From Lentisphaerae bacterium GWF2_44_16 (GTDB taxonomy: Bacteria > Verrucomicrobiota > Lentisphaeria > Victivallales > GWF2-45-14): a stretch of 64,000 bases of DNA. Location of the stretch: the NCBI GenBank assembly GCA_001803225.1, contig MHBF01000081.1, forward strand, positions 1-64,000. The letters are read 5' to 3'. Both the position numbers and the translations under genes were made by a program. Every line of letters begins with the position of its first letter. Position 1 is the stretch's first letter. The notes beneath the pieces were generated by a model. It was not told where the DNA came from. It was given only the letters and a program-made list of their open reading frames with translations, and made no database searches. Of the stretch, positions 29,209 through 39,939 are shown in pieces.

Positions 29209-32200
29209 ATGTTGAAAAAAGAATGGAAAAAATTACTGGCTGGCATCTGTTTTCTGGGTGGGCTTCTCTTTGCGGACGCTTCGGATTTCACTCCTGACAG
29301 GACGCTTTATGTTTCGGGCAATGGTTCGGATGCCAATGACGGGATTTCCGAAAAAACAGCCTTAAAAACGATAGGAAGGGCCGCCGAACTGGCAAAGCCC
29401 GGGGACCTTGTGATAGTGAAAGGCGGCAAATACCGCGAACAGGTTACCCTGGAGAAGTCAGGTACTCCTGAAAAACCGATTGTCTTTCGTGCGGCTCCTG
29501 ATGAAACGGTGCTCATGACATGGGGATGGGATATCGAAGGATGGAAAAAACTTAAAGGGACGCGTTTTGTTTATGAATCTTCGTTTCCTTATGCCATAAA
29601 CATGTTATGGGAAAAGAGGACTTTAAGCCGCTACCTTGAACTTGAAAGCATGGAGTTGCTTGAGAAACAGCCGGGAGGATTTGTCTTCGATAAGAAAACA
29701 GGGAAGATTTTCATACACGCCTTTGACGGCGGAAATCCCGCATCTGCCGGAATAGTCGCAGTCCCGTACAAGAAGCGCGACGTGAAAGACCCATCGCCTG
29801 TTCCATTCAGTGTCGATGTCGAACAGAATAATATGGACAGTTCCAGATTGAGAATTTTCACGGAACTCAGCGGGATTACGGTAAGAGGGGATTACAATAT
29901 TCTGGAAGGCTTCGAATTCGCATTTTTCCCCGGCGCTGCCTTGATTACGGGAATTACGAATAAAGCATTTAATACCGGATCGGTCCTGAAAAAAAATGTT
30001 GCCTACGGATGTAGCGGAGGATTCCGGATAAGGCATGCCTGTGATGCGGCAATTGAAAACAACCGGGCCTATAAAGCTGATGGTTCGGGCATTCATATCG
30101 GCGGCGGAGCAGGCTCAGATGTAAAGGGAAAGAATAAAAACATTCTTGTCAGCGGCAACTACTTGCTTAACAACGGCCCATGCGCGCCATTCGACGTGCA
30201 AAGGAGAGTAACAAGCGGGCATCCGTTCAGCCTGGCGGTGTATGGCAGGTCGGAAGACGTCCGCTTCATAGGCAATACAGTGATTTCCGACGATCCGTCA
30301 AGGCTCTATGGTACGATGCGTTGCAAGAGTGGTGTATTGGGCAATATGGATGTTTGCGGAAATGTTTTTGTGGGCGGCGGGCCTGTTTTCTATGCGTCAT
30401 CTGGTACTGCCTTGATTCAGAACAATACCGTAATCGGTGGTAATATCCGCTATGACAAAACGCTTGCGGACGGCAGTGAGTACAAACCTGAGTTGAAGGA
30501 TAATCTCTATCTGAATGGCAATAAGGAAAAACCTTGCTTTGCCGACACCTTTTTTTATGATTACCGCCTCAGGAAGGACAGCCCTTTCATAGGGAAGGGC
30601 GCATATCCCGAGGCCGGGCAGATATTGTATGTAAACGTTTCCGCAAAAGACGGAGGCGATGGCTCCTCCCCTGGAAAGGCTTTCAAATCTCTTTCGGCTG
30701 CCCTGGAAAAAGCTGTTCCGGGAAATTGCATTTATATGCTTCCCGGAACTTACGGGGAGAATATTTCCATCGCAAAGAAGAAAAGCGTGACATTGCGCAA
30801 TTACGGCAAGGGAAAAGTCGTACTTGAAAACGCATCGTTCGTCCTGAAGGATTGCGGTAAACTCTGCGTTGACGGAATGATATTCCGGAATTCGAAAGTG
30901 CGGCTTGAGAATTCAGACGGCATGGAATTCCTTCACTGCGTATTTGAAGGAGAGGGGATCGCGGCTGAAAATTGCGGAAGCCTCAAAGCGGTGAACAACA
31001 CATTTGTAAAAAGCAGCCTTTCCGCTCCCGGCGCCCGTCTTGTTCTCAGAAACAATCTCTTCGCCGACTGCAAATCCCTGCCTGTGCAGTCCGACCTCGG
31101 AAAGACAATAAGCGAGAACAATGTATTCTCTGGCGGGAATGCCGGAACGCTGCTGAAGGAATGGAAGGACAGATACAGCGAAGGGCATCCGAGTTTTGCG
31201 GAGAAGGTGAAATTGCAGGACGATTATCTGCTGCCTGATGAGAGTAGGCTTGTCTATTCGGGATTGGGCTGGACCTTTGTCGGGGCACTGGGGCCTGAGA
31301 AGAAAAAAAGAGAGATAATGGTTGAAGAGCTGAAAGCTATGAATGTCCTTCCAGACCGTATCGTGCTGAAATGGTATACGCCGTTCGACTATCCGGACGT
31401 GAGAATCACATGCAAGGACGGAAAGGGAAAGAACATCTGCAATATCGAAGTCAGGCAGGGAGAGTATAAGCAGACGGAAAGAACCAAATGCCTGAAAGGG
31501 TTTGATCCGGAAACGGATTATGAAATTGGTTTTGTTTTTACTAATTCAGGAGGAACGGAGAGAACCGAAAAGAAATTGAAAGTGAGGACGGCGGAAAGGA
31601 AAGAATTTACTCCGAAAACATTGCATGTTTCAAAATCCGGCAACGATACCAATGACGGTCTTTCTTTTGAAAAAGCGAAGAAAACTATCGGAGCTGCACT
31701 GTTTTCTGCCTTGCCCAGTGATACTGTTCTGGTGGCGCCCGGGGTTTATACTGAGCAGAATGAGATTTTCATCGACGGCCTTTCAAAAGAGAAGCCTTTT
31801 ACTCTGAAAAGTGAAAAGCCGGGACAGGCTGTCATATCAGCGGGCAATATACTTGAAAACCTTATCAATATCCAGAATTGTGAAAATATCCTTATTGAAG
31901 GGTTTATATTCACTGACATGTATTATTCCTCAATAGTAAGCGGGATTTTGATAGATAGATCCAAATCGGTATCCATTAAAAATTGCCTTTTCCTGAAAAT
32001 GAAAAATAATGTGAGCAATATATATATGAGAGCCTTAAACTCCTCCGGGATTACTGTCGGCAACTGTGTATTTTACCGCGGTTTTCAGGGAATATGGATG
32101 AGAGACTGCGATGGAGTTGAAATATTTAACAACACATTTCTTGAAAATGCCGTGATAACGTTGGCTGTTGAGAGCGGCAATAATGCCGGGATCAGGATAT

Positions 32201-32553
32201 ATAACAATATATTTATGCAATATGCCGTGTTTCCCAAGAAAAATCCGGCTGTTTATTTCAGGAAAGGAGAGAAAGTGTTTTGCGATTACAATTTATATTG
32301 GAAAGGGGATAACCCTAATTTAAGGATTGCCACTTTCGGCAATGGCTTATGGGATATTTCTGATAAAGACACCGCTGGAGCTTTTGAGGAAGCACAGAAA
32401 AAATACGGAATTGAAAAGCATGGACAGTTTGCCGACCCTCTCCTCAAAGATCCGAAAAACGGCGATTTCAGACTCAAGTCAGGTTCCCCGGCAATCGGCA
32501 AAGGGAAAAATGGTTCCAACATAGGCACTGATATGAGCGTATTTTTAAAATAA
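29209..32553 (+). CDS. Secreted right-handed beta-helix protein with FN3-like domain (paralogue)
   Basis: 1114 residues with an N-terminal signal peptide (LLAGICFLGGLLFADA). DUF1565-like beta-helix modules start at about residues 33 (LYVSGNGSDANDGISE), 473 (LYVNVSAKDGGDGSS) and 805 (LHVSKSGNDTNDGLS); an FN3-like domain (DRIVLKWYTPFDYPD, then DPETDYEIGFVFTN) sits at ~710-800. The order helix-helix-FN3-helix is identical to the protein at 20417-23821. Likely an extracellular carbohydrate-binding or -degrading protein; no catalytic residues are claimed. GAGG ribosome-binding site; twelve bases ahead of the CapA-like gene. Confidence 0.85.
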   Translation: MLKKEWKKLLAGICFLGGLLFADASDFTPDRTLYVSGNGSDANDGISEKTALKTIGRAAELAKPGDLVIVKGGKYREQVTLEKSGTPEKPIVFRAAPDETVLMTWGWDIEGWKKLKGTRFVYESSFPYAINMLWEKRTLSRYLELESMELLEKQPGGFVFDKKTGKIFIHAFDGGNPASAGIVAVPYKKRDVKDPSPVPFSVDVEQNNMDSSRLRIFTELSGITVRGDYNILEGFEFAFFPGAALITGITNKAFNTGSVLKKNVAYGCSGGFRIRHACDAAIENNRAYKADGSGIHIGGGAGSDVKGKNKNILVSGNYLLNNGPCAPFDVQRRVTSGHPFSLAVYGRSEDVRFIGNTVISDDPSRLYGTMRCKSGVLGNMDVCGNVFVGGGPVFYASSGTALIQNNTVIGGNIRYDKTLADGSEYKPELKDNLYLNGNKEKPCFADTFFYDYRLRKDSPFIGKGAYPEAGQILYVNVSAKDGGDGSSPGKAFKSLSAALEKAVPGNCIYMLPGTYGENISIAKKKSVTLRNYGKGKVVLENASFVLKDCGKLCVDGMIFRNSKVRLENSDGMEFLHCVFEGEGIAAENCGSLKAVNNTFVKSSLSAPGARLVLRNNLFADCKSLPVQSDLGKTISENNVFSGGNAGTLLKEWKDRYSEGHPSFAEKVKLQDDYLLPDESRLVYSGLGWTFVGALGPEKKKREIMVEELKAMNVLPDRIVLKWYTPFDYPDVRITCKDGKGKNICNIEVRQGEYKQTERTKCLKGFDPETDYEIGFVFTNSGGTERTEKKLKVRTAERKEFTPKTLHVSKSGNDTNDGLSFEKAKKTIGAALFSALPSDTVLVAPGVYTEQNEIFIDGLSKEKPFTLKSEKPGQAVISAGNILENLINIQNCENILIEGFIFTDMYYSSIVSGILIDRSKSVSIKNCLFLKMKNNVSNIYMRALNSSGITVGNCVFYRGFQGIWMRDCDGVEIFNNTFLENAVITLAVESGNNAGIRIYNNIFMQYAVFPKKNPAVYFRKGEKVFCDYNLYWKGDNPNLRIATFGNGLWDISDKDTAGAFEEAQKKYGIEKHGQFADPLLKDPKNGDFRLKSGSPAIGKGKNGSNIGTDMSVFLK

Positions 32554-32565
32554 GGAAATAAGAAG

Positions 32566-33783
32566 GTGCATCTAAAAGATCTTGATGGCAGGATTCGTTT
32601 CAAAGACAAAAGAAGCGAGGAATTAAAATTGATTGTAACAGGGGATTTATGTCCTATAAATATTGCTGAAAAAAAGCTTATTGACGGCAGAGCGGAAGAG
32701 CTTTTCGGAAACATCTTGCCGGAGCTTCTTGACAAAGATATTTCGGTAACGAACCTTGAAACTGTGTTGACAGGAGCAGATACGCCGATTGTAAAATGCG
32801 GGCCCAATCTGAAAATATCTCCCGATGCCATTGCCGGAATAAATACAGCAGGATTTGACGTTTATACTCTGGCTAATAATCACACGAGGGACTTTGGGGA
32901 CGACGCTTTTCTTGAGACCATGGAACATATCATGAAGAGCGGAAGAAAATATGTCGGTGGCGGTCGTAATCTTGAAGCTGCCGCTAAACCGCTCAGAATG
33001 GAAATCAAAGGATTGAAAATAAGCATTATCAACGCGACTATGCATAATATCTGTGTGGCAGGAAAGAATTCTCCCGGCGCAAATCCTCTTTTACCCGCGA
33101 CCATAGCTGTAACGATAACGCGTGAGAAAAAAGATAATGATTTTGTTCTCGTCATAATACATGACGGCAAGGAGCACATACCTTTCCCGTCAGCGCGCAT
33201 AAGAGAGAATTACCGTGCTTTTGCCGATGCCGGGGCGGATGCTATAATCGGACACCATCCGCATATTTATCAGGGCTTTGAAGTTTATAAGGGGGCGTTC
33301 ATAGCATACAGTCTCGGTAATTTTCTTTTTCCTTCCAGAGATCCAGCGACAGCACCTGATTTCTGGTGGAAGAGTTACGCCTTGAGGCTCCATATAAGCG
33401 CCAATGGTGTTTCAGGGATAGATGTGATCCCTCACAAATTATCTCAGGATGGAAGAATGGAGTTGATGTCCGGCGATGAACGGAAAAACTTTTTAGAGAA
33501 GATCTCAGGATTGAACAAGATTGTTTCTGATGATGAACTATGCGAGCAATATTATGATGCCGCGTCATTGCGTTTTGCTTATTATGAGAAGAAAGTTTCG
33601 GAGCTTATCAAACTGAGGGAAGCTGGCGATACGGCGGGCGAGGCGCATTTCAAAAGTGTTTTCTACTGTCATCACATGCTGACAACGGAAGAACATCTTG
33701 ATGTTCTTCAGAGCATTACCAAAACATATTCGTCTGGTAAAAAACTAATAATACCGGATGATTTGGATTATTACATGAAATAG
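32566..33783 (+). CDS. CapA-family protein (metallophosphatase-like)
   Basis: 405 residues. The PGA_cap family pattern is clear: LKLIVTGDLCPI near the start, VTNLETVLTGADTPIVKCGP, the LANNHTRDFG motif, and a late HHPHIYQGFEVYKGAFIAYSLGNFLF block; these supply the metal-binding D, N and H residues of the calcineurin-like fold. CapA is associated with poly-gamma-glutamate export in Bacillus, but most homologues have unknown substrates, and this one has no signal peptide or anchor. GTG start at 32566 with AAGGA upstream. Last gene of the right arm of the divergent pair and the only one without a left-arm counterpart type. Confidence 0.85.
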   Translation: MHLKDLDGRIRFKDKRSEELKLIVTGDLCPINIAEKKLIDGRAEELFGNILPELLDKDISVTNLETVLTGADTPIVKCGPNLKISPDAIAGINTAGFDVYTLANNHTRDFGDDAFLETMEHIMKSGRKYVGGGRNLEAAAKPLRMEIKGLKISIINATMHNICVAGKNSPGANPLLPATIAVTITREKKDNDFVLVIIHDGKEHIPFPSARIRENYRAFADAGADAIIGHHPHIYQGFEVYKGAFIAYSLGNFLFPSRDPATAPDFWWKSYALRLHISANGVSGIDVIPHKLSQDGRMELMSGDERKNFLEKISGLNKIVSDDELCEQYYDAASLRFAYYEKKVSELIKLREAGDTAGEAHFKSVFYCHHMLTTEEHLDVLQSITKTYSSGKKLIIPDDLDYYMK

Positions 33784-34943: not shown

Positions 34944-35915
34944 ATGACAGTTCAATGCGATATATGTCCGCGGCATTGTTCTCTGAACCCGGGGCAGTAC
35001 GGTAACTGCCGGGTAAGGAAAAATGTTGACGGAAAAGTTACCCTCGTTACCTACGGCTATCCGTGCGCGATGCATGTCGACCCTGTGGAGAAAAAGCCCC
35101 TTTTTCATTTTCTGCCGGGCTCCGAAACTTTTTCCATAGCCACCGCCGGATGCAATCTGCACTGCAAAAATTGTCAGAACTGGGAAATATCCCAGTCTTC
35201 GGCGGAACAAGTTTCAGCAACTCACGCTCCGCCCGAAAAAATAGCCGAACTCGCCCTGAAATATAAATGCAAATCAGTAGCATACACCTATACCGATCCC
35301 GTGGTTTTTTATGAGTACGCCTATGACTGTTCGGTGAAAGTCCATGAAGCAGGTTTGAAAAATATACTCGTAACGGCAGGATACATAAATAAGGGGCCCT
35401 TAAAGAAAATAGCTAAATACACAGATGGCGCGCATTTCGATCTGAAGGCTTTTTCTGACAAGTTTTACCGTGAAGTCTGCGGGGCCACTCTCCAGCCCGT
35501 CCTTGACGCGCTTGTCACCGCCAAATCCTGCGGCGTATGGGTGGAAGTCATAAACCTTATCATACCTACCTTGAACGATAAGGACGAAGATATAGCTAAA
35601 CTTTGCAAGTGGGTCAAGGAAAATCTGGGCGGGGAAACCCCGCTGCATATTTCCCGTTTCTTTCCCAATTATCTCATGAAGAACCTGCCGCCTACTTCCC
35701 CGAAAACATTGGAAAACGCCAAGAAAATAGCGAACGATGCCGGGCTTGATTTCGTATATATAGGCAACATAGCCACGGAAAACGGGGAAAATACATACTG
35801 CCCGGGATGTAAAAAACTTCTCATAAAAAGGAGCAGATACGAGATACTGGAAAACAATATAAGCGCCGGAAAATGTCCGGCCTGCAAAAGGGAGATACCG
35901 GGAATATGGACATGA
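34944..35915 (+). CDS. amrS: AmmeMemoRadiSam system radical SAM enzyme
   Basis: 323 residues. A zinc- or iron-binding N-terminal CDICPRHCSLNPGQYGNC block precedes the radical SAM motif CNLHCKNCQNW (~residue 70, CxxxCxxC). The later KYTDGAHFDLKAFSDKFYREVC is typical of the pyruvate-formate-lyase-activating-like AmrS subfamily, and a C-terminal rubredoxin-like CPGCKKL/CPACKRE knuckle pair ends the protein. Generates a 5'-deoxyadenosyl radical; the target of the AmmeMemoRadiSam system is unknown. GGAG eight bases before the ATG. Its stop overlaps the start of the next small gene (ATGA), so the locus is an operon. Confidence 0.93.
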   Translation: MTVQCDICPRHCSLNPGQYGNCRVRKNVDGKVTLVTYGYPCAMHVDPVEKKPLFHFLPGSETFSIATAGCNLHCKNCQNWEISQSSAEQVSATHAPPEKIAELALKYKCKSVAYTYTDPVVFYEYAYDCSVKVHEAGLKNILVTAGYINKGPLKKIAKYTDGAHFDLKAFSDKFYREVCGATLQPVLDALVTAKSCGVWVEVINLIIPTLNDKDEDIAKLCKWVKENLGGETPLHISRFFPNYLMKNLPPTSPKTLENAKKIANDAGLDFVYIGNIATENGENTYCPGCKKLLIKRSRYEILENNISAGKCPACKREIPGIWT

Positions 35916-36088
35916 AAAGAAGAACTTTTTTAAAACTCGCGGGGCTTTTTTCCCTTGCCGCGTTCATCGATTTCTCTAAATTGGCGGCGGAGTTTCCGGG
36001 AAGCTTCTCGACAGAGCTGTCTTATCCGGGAAGAGTGAAGCCTCTTAATGAAGCGGGGATACGTTCAATGGGTAAATGGGCGGGATGA
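35912..36088 (+). CDS. Very small Tat-signal protein in the AmmeMemoRadiSam locus
   Basis: 58 residues. It opens with a twin-arginine signal (MKRRTFLKLAGLFSLAAF), followed by about 30 residues ending YPGRVKPLNEAG...MGKWAG. The start overlaps the amrS stop in an ATGA arrangement, with GGGA eight bases upstream; ATG 35906 is an alternative. Its tiny exported mature part might be a substrate, a maturation partner or a cofactor-bearing peptide of the system; no homologous family is named here. It precedes the AmrB-AmrA fusion by 19 bases. Coding status is supported by the Tat motif and the coupling. Confidence 0.65.
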   Translation: MKRRTFLKLAGLFSLAAFIDFSKLAAEFPGSFSTELSYPGRVKPLNEAGIRSMGKWAG

Positions 36089-36107
36089 GTAAATGGAAGG
36101 GAATATG

Positions 36108-37655
36108 ATGAAAGCTTCAATATATGTTTTTTTGACGGCTGTGCTTTTTTTATCAGCAGGCATGAAAGGAGATAACACGACTTCTCCTGAGAAGTATGTC
36201 ATCCAGTCAAGACTGGCCGGTTCATGGTACAGCGCTGACAAAAACACACTCCAGGCGGAGATTAAAAAATATTTTGACAATGTTAAACAGACAAAAGAAT
36301 TAAAGGACGTAATAGCTTTGATACTTCCCCATGCCGGGTACAGGTATTCAGGCCAGACCGCCGCTTACGGGACAAAGCAGATAGAGGGAAAAAATTTCAG
36401 CCGCATAATAGTCATAGGCCCCAGTCACAGGGCGCGCATGAATAATTGCATAAGCGTTCCTTCCGCCACTCACTATTCAACGCCGCTTGGTGAAATTCCT
36501 CTGGATACCCAGTTTATTTCGGAACTGAACAAGAACCCTTTCGCTAAAAGCATTCCCCTGGCCGATGTACTTGAACACAGCGTTCAGATCGAGCTGCCGT
36601 TGCTTCAGTGCGCGGTGAAAAATTTCAAGCTTGTCCCGATAGTGGTCGGAGAACTCGACAAGGAAACTTCTCAGAAAATAGCACAGGTACTTCTTTCACT
36701 CATGGACAATGAAACTCTTGTTATCGCCAGTTCGGATTTTACTCATTTCGGAGAAAACTATGGTTATCTTCCGTTCAGGAGCGACATAAATGATAACATC
36801 GAAAAACTCGATATGGGTGCTTTAGAGCAGATAAAAAAACTGGATTCGGCCGCCTTTAAAACGTATATAGATAAAACAGGCGACACCATCTGCGGCAGGA
36901 ACAGCATATCGCTGCTGCTTGATATGCTTCCGCCCAAAACAGGAGTAGAACTCCTGAAATATGATACGTCCGGGGCGATTACCTCAGACTTTTCAAATTC
37001 CGTCAGTTATCTGAGCATAGCTTTTTGCGGCAGATGGAATCTTGCCCGTAAAGCTTCTGATACTCCGAAAGATGATGCCATGCTCAGCATGGAAGATAAA
37101 AAAGAACTTCTCAAACTTGCCCGTGAAAGTCTTGTTTATTACATGAAGAACGGTAAAAAAGCCACGCCGGAAGAGCTGGGAATAAAACTGACTCCAGCTA
37201 TGAAAAAGCAGATGGGGGCTTTTGTAACGCTTCATAAAAATGGAGAACTTCGCGGCTGCATAGGCGAAATAGTACCGCGCCGGGCTTTGTATGAGGCAGT
37301 AATGGACCATGCCGTTAATTCGGCGTTGAACGATTACCGTTTTCCTCCGGTGAAGCTCCTCGAAATACCTCAGCTGGAATTTGAGATATCAGCCCTGACC
37401 CCGCCGAAAGCGGTTGATTCATACAAGGACATTATCATAGGTAAAAATGGAATGACCCTTACTAAAAATGGACGTTCAGCCGTGTTTTTGCCGCAGGTGG
37501 CGACGGAACAGGGCTGGGGGCTTGATGAAACGCTTTCACATCTTGCCGCAAAGGCGGGACTGCCCCCTGACGCATGGAAGGACGGAGCGAAATTCACGGT
37601 TTTTGAAGCAGTAGTATTCAGCGAGCATGATTTCAGTTCCGGGGACAGAAAATAA
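36108..37655 (+). CDS. amrB/amrA: AmrB-AmrA fusion (MEMO1 domain + AMMECR1 domain), secreted
   Basis: 515 residues. A signal peptide (IYVFLTAVLFLSAG) is followed by a MEMO1-like domain (~30-310) with LPHAGYRYSGQTAA, GPSHRARM, LEHSVQIELPLLQ, SSDFTHFG and DTICGRNS, the His/Cys metal-like site, then an AMMECR1 domain (~330-515) holding the family hallmark GELRGCIGEI. The two are usually separate AmrB and AmrA proteins. ATG 36108 is favoured by GGAAGGGA six bases upstream; ATGs at 36093 and 36105 are in frame. Its export together with the Tat peptide suggests that part of the system works outside the cytoplasm, although AmrS has no signal. Confidence 0.92.
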   Translation: MKASIYVFLTAVLFLSAGMKGDNTTSPEKYVIQSRLAGSWYSADKNTLQAEIKKYFDNVKQTKELKDVIALILPHAGYRYSGQTAAYGTKQIEGKNFSRIIVIGPSHRARMNNCISVPSATHYSTPLGEIPLDTQFISELNKNPFAKSIPLADVLEHSVQIELPLLQCAVKNFKLVPIVVGELDKETSQKIAQVLLSLMDNETLVIASSDFTHFGENYGYLPFRSDINDNIEKLDMGALEQIKKLDSAAFKTYIDKTGDTICGRNSISLLLDMLPPKTGVELLKYDTSGAITSDFSNSVSYLSIAFCGRWNLARKASDTPKDDAMLSMEDKKELLKLARESLVYYMKNGKKATPEELGIKLTPAMKKQMGAFVTLHKNGELRGCIGEIVPRRALYEAVMDHAVNSALNDYRFPPVKLLEIPQLEFEISALTPPKAVDSYKDIIIGKNGMTLTKNGRSAVFLPQVATEQGWGLDETLSHLAAKAGLPPDAWKDGAKFTVFEAVVFSEHDFSSGDRK

Positions 37656-37656
37656 T

Positions 37657-39939
37657 ATGCCGGAATTTTCAAAACGTTTCGTAATTTTCTGTCTTGGTTT
37701 TTTCTCGCTTGTGGCGCAGACCCTACTTTTCAGGGATTTTCTGACAGTGATGGAAGGGAATGAACTGGCAATAGGTTTTTTCTTTTTTTCATGGCTGATA
37801 TGGATATCGGCAGGAGCGTTGGCAGGGAGGCTGAATTTATTTTCAAAAAAGTCAGTGGCTGATAGTTTCGAATTAGTGGCGCTGATTTACATACCGGCGC
37901 TGCTGATTCAGCAGTATCTGCTTTTAAATATAAGGCAAATAAGCGGAACGGCCTCCTTTGAACAGTTGTCGCTGGCGAAAGCCATACCCCTGCTTTTCAT
38001 TTCAAACGCGCCAGTCAGTTTCATGACTGGGCTTCTGTTTGTCCTCGCGTGCAGGTGGATGACCGCTGTAATTCCTGCGTCGTCAGTTTATATAGCGGAA
38101 GCGCTCGGGAGTTTCGCCGGGGCCATCGCGGTAACAATACTGCTGTTTTATAAAATCAGTCCGGGGACTATAATACCATCCGCATCTTTACTTCTTATAA
38201 CTTCATCATTTCTATGTCTTTTTATTCTGAGAAAAAATACAGTGCGCATATTGACCGCGTTCCTGTTTCTTATTGCAAATGCCGTGTTTCTCATTACTGG
38301 ATGCGGAGAAAAAATGCAGAGGCATTATGTGTTGAGTGCCTGGGAACGGATGCTGCCTGGAGGGGAGTATCGCGGAAATTTCACAACCTCACAGGCTAAA
38401 TACAGCTATGGAAAATACGCTGATCAGTTCATTATAAGCGCATGGGGTTCTGTTTATGAAAGCCTTCCAGATTCCATCAACGCCATTGAGACGGCCGCTT
38501 TGAACTTGGCGGAAAAGCCGGACGCGCAGAACATACTTGTCGCCGGAAACGGTTCTTTTTCACTCTGTTCAGTTCTGGCTTCCCTGAAGCAGGTACGGAA
38601 GGTGTACTGGCTGGACCCTGACGTCGAATATCCTGAAAATCTTCTCAAGGTAATTCCCCCTGAATACAGGAAAGCTTCCGGCAAAATACAAATTCCATCC
38701 CGTGACATAAGGCACTTTCTGAACGGGAACAGAATAAAATATGATTTGATAATAATGAACATGCCCAATCCATCAACACTTCTTCTGAACAGGTATTTTA
38801 CGCTTGAAAATTTCATGCTGTTGAAAAACAGCTTATCGGAGCAAGGTGTGCTCAGCGTGAGTTTTCCGGGCGGCGATAATTACATGGGGAGCGAACTGAG
38901 TTATTCCGGGGCATCATTGTTTATGACTTTGAAAAAAGCTTTCAGATACATTGCGTTCAAGCCGGGGGACAGCAGTATTTTTTTCGTGTCCGATGAAGAA
39001 GGCGTCCTGAGCGAAGACGCTTCCGTTCTTGAAAAAAGACTTTTATCCGTGGAGGGGATCAGCATGATATACTCTCCCAAAAATGTCGCTTCCTCATTCA
39101 TGAAGGAAAGAATAAAATTTCAGAAAGACAAGTATTTGGAAATAATGAAAATTTCCCGGCAGGGAGAGCTTGTAAATTCAGACAGTCATCCCAAATCCTA
39201 TCTTTACTGCCTGCTCTTCGCACTTAAGAAAACAGGGGGTATGAGTTTTGATATTTTCTATTTGAGACAGCTTACGCGGTTGCTTTTTCCTGTCCTTGCC
39301 GTGATGTTGACAGCATATGGCATTTTCAGGATTCTGCTGTTTTCCGGGAAAAATGGAAAATTCAAATTTTCCATCCCGCCAGTCGGCATTCCCGGGGAAT
39401 GGGATATTCTGTTTATAATTTTTGCCGCGTCTCTGGCTGGAATGGTACTTAATATAATACTGATATTCAGGTATCAGATGGTTTTCGGTTCAGTTTTTCT
39501 TAATTTCGGGATACTGAGTTCACTTTTCATGCTCGGGAATTTTGGTGGCGGCAACATAGCGGAGAGGATAGTTAAAAACAGAGGCTGGAACTGGTATTAT
39601 ATTCCGCTGACGACATTATTTTTTGCTTTTTTCGTAATCTGGACAGACATGTTGCCGACACCTTCACAAACGCTTTTCGGGGTATTGATTTTTCTTTCCG
39701 GATTTTTCAGCGGCGTGTATTTTCCGCTTGCGGCTTTTCTACTGAGGGCGGAAGGGAAGGGTGTCGCGCTTACGGGTTCAAGCCTTGAAGCGCTTGACTG
39801 TCTGGGGGGCGCGACGGGTTCGATGATTACAGCGTTAATAATGCTTCCTCTCATTGGAGCGCGGATGTCAATGGCCCTGCTTTTGGTTATTCTTGCGATT
39901 GTTCTTGTCCATTCGATAATTCTTTCCTGTCGGAGTTAG
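37657..39939 (+). CDS. Polytopic membrane protein with spermidine-synthase-like domain
   Basis: 760 residues. About seven N-terminal membrane segments (FVIFCLGFFSLVAQTLLFRDF onward), a Rossmann methyltransferase-like domain at ~295-500 (ILVAGNGSFSLCSVL, VYWLDPDVEYPENL, DLIIMNMPNPSTLLLNRYFT), then about seven C-terminal membrane segments. Fused spermidine synthases normally have an acidic gatekeeper in DLPDP-type motifs; here the two aspartates are asparagines (MNMPNP), so aminopropyl transfer is doubtful. ATG 37657 is one base beyond the amrBA stop; an internal upstream ATG 37627 overlaps that gene. Similar proteins occur at AmmeMemoRadiSam loci, so it is probably the membrane partner. Confidence 0.8.
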   Translation: MPEFSKRFVIFCLGFFSLVAQTLLFRDFLTVMEGNELAIGFFFFSWLIWISAGALAGRLNLFSKKSVADSFELVALIYIPALLIQQYLLLNIRQISGTASFEQLSLAKAIPLLFISNAPVSFMTGLLFVLACRWMTAVIPASSVYIAEALGSFAGAIAVTILLFYKISPGTIIPSASLLLITSSFLCLFILRKNTVRILTAFLFLIANAVFLITGCGEKMQRHYVLSAWERMLPGGEYRGNFTTSQAKYSYGKYADQFIISAWGSVYESLPDSINAIETAALNLAEKPDAQNILVAGNGSFSLCSVLASLKQVRKVYWLDPDVEYPENLLKVIPPEYRKASGKIQIPSRDIRHFLNGNRIKYDLIIMNMPNPSTLLLNRYFTLENFMLLKNSLSEQGVLSVSFPGGDNYMGSELSYSGASLFMTLKKAFRYIAFKPGDSSIFFVSDEEGVLSEDASVLEKRLLSVEGISMIYSPKNVASSFMKERIKFQKDKYLEIMKISRQGELVNSDSHPKSYLYCLLFALKKTGGMSFDIFYLRQLTRLLFPVLAVMLTAYGIFRILLFSGKNGKFKFSIPPVGIPGEWDILFIIFAASLAGMVLNIILIFRYQMVFGSVFLNFGILSSLFMLGNFGGGNIAERIVKNRGWNWYYIPLTTLFFAFFVIWTDMLPTPSQTLFGVLIFLSGFFSGVYFPLAAFLLRAEGKGVALTGSSLEALDCLGGATGSMITALIMLPLIGARMSMALLLVILAIVLVHSIILSCRS

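Follow-up and report, generated by a model that had tools for sequence, protein, structure and literature searches.

The AmmeMemoRadiSam system unites a radical SAM enzyme (AmrS) with Memo (AmrB) and AMMECR1 (AmrA), families that to our knowledge are widely conserved (Memo from archaea to humans) and have no agreed reaction. A metal site formed by H49, H81 and C244 is described for MEMO1 (PMC11081632). Tat hitchhiker export is documented for E. coli PaoABC (PMC4273604), and a small signal-bearing hitchhiker subunit is known in the gamma subunit of the Burkholderia FAD glucose dehydrogenase (PMC6719666). In PceC, an FMN_bind domain of the type discussed below was placed outside the cytoplasm by experiment (PMC5928378). 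The locus analysed here, four genes in a 64,000-nucleotide stretch of DNA (the window), combines AmmeMemoRadiSam proteins with a small Tat-signal protein and a polytopic membrane partner.

Gene content and distribution of the cassette

ORFs and family profiles bear out the four genes described in the first-pass annotation, all on the + strand. The first, amrS (34944..35915), encodes a 323-residue radical SAM enzyme; its stop is overlapped by 4 nt by the start of a mini-Tat ORF (35912..36088, 58 aa; an alternative start at 35906 would give 60 aa). The third encodes an AmrB(Memo)–AmrA(AMMECR1) fusion with a predicted export signal (AmrBA, 36108..37655), from an ORF that opens at 36093 and probably starts at 36105 or 36108, after GGAAGGGA. 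The last, for a polytopic membrane protein with a spermidine-synthase-like loop (37657..39939), lies in an ORF that opens at 37627, with the likely start at 37657, one base past the AmrBA stop. AmrS scores 400 bits against TIGR04337 (cut-off 220), and the AmrBA ORF 213.6 bits against TIGR04336 (cut-off 26) and 161.7 bits against TIGR04335 (cut-off 99); with all three above their NCBIfam cut-offs, the set classifies as AmmeMemoRadiSam.

The operon is flanked upstream by a divergent pyrF-like gene (named from its ORF reading) and downstream by a convergent histidine kinase gene. The window also holds a PGA_cap (capsule synthesis) family gene (32566-33783) and, upstream of it, a gene for a 1114-aa exported-type protein with the look of right-handed β-helix repeats (29209-32553). 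The genome also encodes TatC and ApbE. Outside the operon it carries a further copy each of AmrB and AmrA along with a canonical AmrS, a scattered set with no obvious signals (G000:C26, L095 6057-7040; G000:C97, L096 5822-6391; G000:C137, L034 7051-7929).

The four genes are found again, in unchanged order, within the same taxonomic order. Scanning named genomes with an AmrBA alignment gave 80 loci, 43 of them with an AmrS within 5 kb, and the cassette occurs in Verrucomicrobiota (including Lentisphaeria and Kiritimatiellia), Planctomycetota, Hydrogenedentota, Myxococcota and Bdellovibrionota. The comparative genomics of amr loci suggested in the first-pass annotation thus returns the same four genes, in the same order, across phyla. 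Because genes and order are identical over this range, and because a mini-Tat gene accompanies 57 of 58 split loci (defined below) against 2% of random positions, the cluster does not reflect chance.

Split AmrS and the mini-Tat protein

AmrS occurs in four builds: canonical, Tat-fused, TM-anchored and split. Canonical AmrS has a short EAxxYxxL element followed by VxCxLCP. In Tat-fused AmrS (n = 20; L033 in this genome, L049 and L223-L240) a Tat signal precedes the EAxxYxxL element, and several of these genes adjoin the same type of membrane protein and an exported AmrA or AmrBA. The TM-anchored proteins (n = 2; L043 and L046) are ambiguous in orientation. Split AmrS, the build found in the window, begins directly at VQCxLCP (VQCDICP here) and is without the EAxFYxKL element. 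The window protein, assigned from TIGR04337, alignments and the fold search of a relative's model, retains the radical SAM motif CX3CX2C as CNLHCKNC (PF04055, 67 bits); that model, of L112, adopts a confident PFL-activase-like fold, with PFL-AE (3cb8) as the top Foldseek match. Canonical and split AmrS each fall on one side of a branch in a tree built by a quick method (SH-aLRT 97 and 95). AF2 gives pLDDT values of 97-98 for the N-terminal element of Tat-fused AmrS and of 66-75 for the first 40 residues of split L112, a region that reaches 97 in Tat-fused L223; the gap is suggestive, the models being built from different alignments. The Tat-fused paralogue of this genome (G000:C68, L033 5675-6838) lies beside a PSP1-like gene (named by eye); neither AmrB/A nor the membrane partner was found within the stretch fetched around it.

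The mini-Tat protein (MKRRTFLKLAGLFSLAAF...YPGRVKPLNEAGIRSMGKWAG) opens MKRRTFLK and runs from a KRRTFLK Tat motif through a hydrophobic stretch to YPGRVKPL...GKWAG at its extreme C-terminus. Its signal matches PF10518 below the cut-off, and signal peptides and Tat signals were judged throughout by eye and pattern. An ORF of 50-95 aa with a twin-arginine type start follows amrS in 57 of 58 distinct split loci; in the lone exception (G026) the mini-Tat sits upstream of AmrBA, on a separate contig. The RR pair is present in 56 of the 57, the C-terminal residue is glycine in all 57 and tryptophan occupies position −3 (W-x-G) in 53, counts that are partly built in for the ending, as our criterion required [WL]-x-G, but not for the tryptophan share or the position beside amrS. 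Applied to controls, the same criterion matched 1/47 canonical AmrS (a match that is not Tat-like), 0/18 Tat-fused and 0/2 TM-anchored. Judged by this conservation, the mini-Tat is a real, conserved gene; its absence from close relatives, which the first-pass annotation had named as the outcome that would speak against its reading, is not what we see. The pair also has the sequence features of Tat hitchhikers: RRx(F/L) on the small partner, a cargo free of such a signal, and adjacent genes, the signal being judged by sequence.

Other origins of the small protein were considered. That it is a piece of a larger exported protein was rejected, as no fusion was found. Canonical AmrS (L193-L213) ends in a tail, PGxWGxRRxPV, similar to the PGkWaG that closes the mini-Tat; the idea that GkWaG is this tail in detached form is kept as a lead only, since Tat-fused AmrS is without the tail too. 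In an AF2 model of a read-through AmrS/mini-Tat chain, the mini-Tat C-terminus was unplaced (pLDDT under 60), with two alignment rows covering it.

AmrBA, the membrane partner and the missing AmrS element

Window AmrBA starts MKASIYVFLTAVLFLSAG, a Sec-type signal, and 7/7 aligned relatives likewise start with one. A signal peptide or lipobox is carried by 41-42 of the 43 AmrBA proteins beside split AmrS, against about half of those without a neighbouring amrS. These signals support the extracytoplasmic AmrBA proposed in the first-pass annotation. In an alignment with MEMO1, AmrB keeps PHAGY, GPSH and TICG stretches that align with the metal-site region, and a metal function of the exported protein is plausible. 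AmrB–AmrA fusions at six loci (L123, L131, L133, L162, L163 and L173) have no visible signal peptide and no amrS nearby; the fusion per se is therefore not tied to export.

The window membrane protein, defined by its ORF, TM prediction and a homologue profile, has 14 TM segments arranged as seven, a spermidine-synthase-like loop (38305..39279) and seven more, the loop being placed by its bounds, the consensus topology of 52 homologues and a PDB profile match. The family profile matches PDB spermidine synthases with E about 1e-16; the window protein itself scores 17.2 against Pfam spermidine synthase, below the cut-off of 22.9. MNMPNP stands where the enzymes have D-S-S-D-P, confirming by profile against PDB chains the lost catalytic Asp pair (D-x-x-D-P) already noted from the sequence; relatives usually have Asn for the first Asp and often retain the second acidic residue. 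A partner of this kind lies near split AmrS in 39/45 cases, Tat-fused in 8/19, TM-anchored in 2/2 and canonical in 0/20 and 0/4. At an unrelated place in the genome (G000:C50, L050 8908-11220) lies a gene for another polytopic protein of the spermidine-synthase-like type, which shares about 27% identity with that of the window.

Most relatives have a longer fourth protein (1150-1320 aa), in which an FMN_bind domain (flavinylation motif) and two CX3CP motifs are joined by a C-terminal tail ending LSdhEAxYYxKL. The RdhC/NosR-type combination of FMN_bind with two CX3CP is seen among the long forms, for example in L112, L101, L127 and L152, and is absent from the window protein, and FMN_bind, NapH and the tail were not detected in the window protein or in its family relative G001; by sequence, the window's protein is a reduced form (G000, G001). 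Topology was taken from a consensus hydropathy profile of the 52 homologues, as single-sequence TM counts are noisy. It comprises 20 TM segments with Lys/Arg-rich even loops, and puts the spermidine-synthase-like loop and FMN_bind outside and CX3CP inside, agreeing for FMN_bind with PceC.

A profile of 54 AmrS N-termini was run against 8108 ORF C-termini, and the top of this search consists of tails belonging to the membrane partner or to the small ORF just behind it (single E-values weak, 0.03 to 2; enrichment strong). Where the membrane protein ends behind its CX3CP region, the small ORF that follows comprises one TM and the same EAxYYxKL-type tail. The tail comes in four builds: directly behind FMN_bind in L132; behind an additional TM that succeeds the cytoplasmic CX3CP loops in L112; on a separate ORF with a single TM in L140, L149, L109 and L152; and on an FMN_bind protein with a signal peptide in L088 and G077, which in G077 has no other TM and is closed by the tail. 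Consensus topology and these architectures together predict the tail to be outside in all four. This second split piece is missing at the window locus (MAG about 91% complete).

Where AmrS would act

We consider it probable that this is an extracytoplasmic AmmeMemoRadiSam system in which AmrS itself is exported and the mini-Tat serves as its hitchhiker escort. AmrS would fold and receive its Fe-S cluster in the cytoplasm, bind YPGxxxPL...GxWxG at the C-terminus of the mini-Tat and pass through the Tat translocase together with it. On the far side it would encounter AmrBA, exported by Sec, as well as the membrane partner. In most relatives the outward tail at the C-terminus of this partner would provide the EAxFYxKL element that split AmrS is without, and the partner's FMN_bind/NosR-like modules could deliver electrons. 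One AmrS build would thus be exported by its own Tat signal and the other by a separate escort. We favour export because Tat signals are fused directly to AmrS and because an outward tail carries its missing element; the complementary distribution of the mini-Tat, beside split AmrS and absent with the canonical, Tat-fused and TM-anchored builds, counts for an escort. In favour too are the signals on AmrBA beside split AmrS, the membrane partner's presence near split, Tat-fused and TM-anchored but not canonical AmrS, the AmrS tree, the suggestive AF2 gap, and TatC and ApbE in the genome. From what the sequences support (gene set, signals, topology and split pieces) we infer the Tat export, the complex and the electron route.

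Two observations made here speak against an exported AmrS: the second split piece is missing from the membrane protein of the window and of G001, and AF2 left the mini-Tat C-terminus unplaced. In addition, neither SAM nor a strong reductant is known outside the cytoplasm, and radical SAM enzymes are a class assumed to act only inside the cell. We found no report of such an enzyme outside the cytoplasm in the open-access literature, and no AmrS in flavinylation surveys. A fuller scheme would meet both needs: AmrS would work wholly outside, as an enzyme assembled in trans from pieces of two partners, with electrons drawn through the flavinylated NosR-like module, and the outward spermidine-synthase-fold domain of the same polytopic protein would present or export SAM. 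We offer this version tentatively and think it rather doubtful in full.

Alternatively, in a stronger form of what the first-pass annotation proposed, AmrS may stay in the cytoplasm and modify the conserved end of the mini-Tat, with its Tyr, Trp and Gly; Tat would then export this small substrate to work with AmrBA outside. A radical SAM gene adjoining a small protein with an invariant C-terminus resembles modified-peptide systems, the nearest relatives of AmrS, the PFL-activases, act on a peptide loop, and the C-terminus holds Gly in 57/57 and Trp in 53/57; yet Tat-fused AmrS keeps the same partners without such a peptide, the AmrS N-terminal element sits on outward-facing tails, and an unfolded peptide of roughly 25 residues would not need Tat. 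We judge the substrate role less likely, and on balance improbable. The first-pass annotation had pointed to modification of an exported or membrane target rather than polyamine synthesis; its Tat peptide as the AmrS target gives way to export of AmrS, which Tat-fused AmrS and the outward tail favour, and its dismissal of polyamine synthesis holds.

The mini-Tat could instead be a membrane anchor that holds AmrS at the inner face, near the membrane partner, with no translocation. No conserved AxA cleavage site is obvious in it and L043 and L046 encode TM-anchored AmrS, but twin arginines in 56/57 exceed an anchor's need, Tat-fused AmrS bears ordinary Tat signals and the tail with the AmrS element faces outward, making an anchor very unlikely. 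Ordinary polyamine metabolism, with a membrane-bound spermidine synthase in a chance neighbourhood, has weak Pfam/NCBIfam matches in its favour and is rejected on the lost Asp motif and the predicted outside position of the domain, with gene order kept across phyla.

If AmrS works outside, as the escort reading has it, radical SAM chemistry is not bound to the cytoplasm, and a supply of SAM and low-potential electrons must exist there. A version that bears export signals, comes with a membrane partner of its own and has recognisable docking pieces would narrow where the chemistry of these families occurs and give testable interfaces.

Set beside the AmmeMemoRadiSam system (TIGR04335/04336/04337), to which all three window proteins belong, the locus differs in a fused, signal-bearing AmrBA, in an N-terminally trimmed AmrS paired with a Tat mini-protein, and in an added polytopic membrane partner, found in 0/24 canonical AmrS neighbourhoods. 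Like the described Tat hitchhikers, it has a small protein with the sole Tat signal, encoded beside a signal-less Fe-S enzyme; unlike them, the cargo, as deduced here from sequence, would be a radical SAM enzyme, and the escort measures no more than about 60 aa. The fourth protein in its long forms has FMN_bind with [ST]GAT.[ST] and two CX3CP in common with RdhC/PceC, NosR and NapH, as in PceC (PMC5928378), but adds about 15 TM segments and the spermidine-synthase-like loop before this module and an AmrS-like tail after it; the window's short form is without the module. With spermidine synthase the membrane protein shares a related fold region by PDB profile match, although its catalytic Asp motif is lost and the domain lies between TM bundles, on the predicted extracytoplasmic side.
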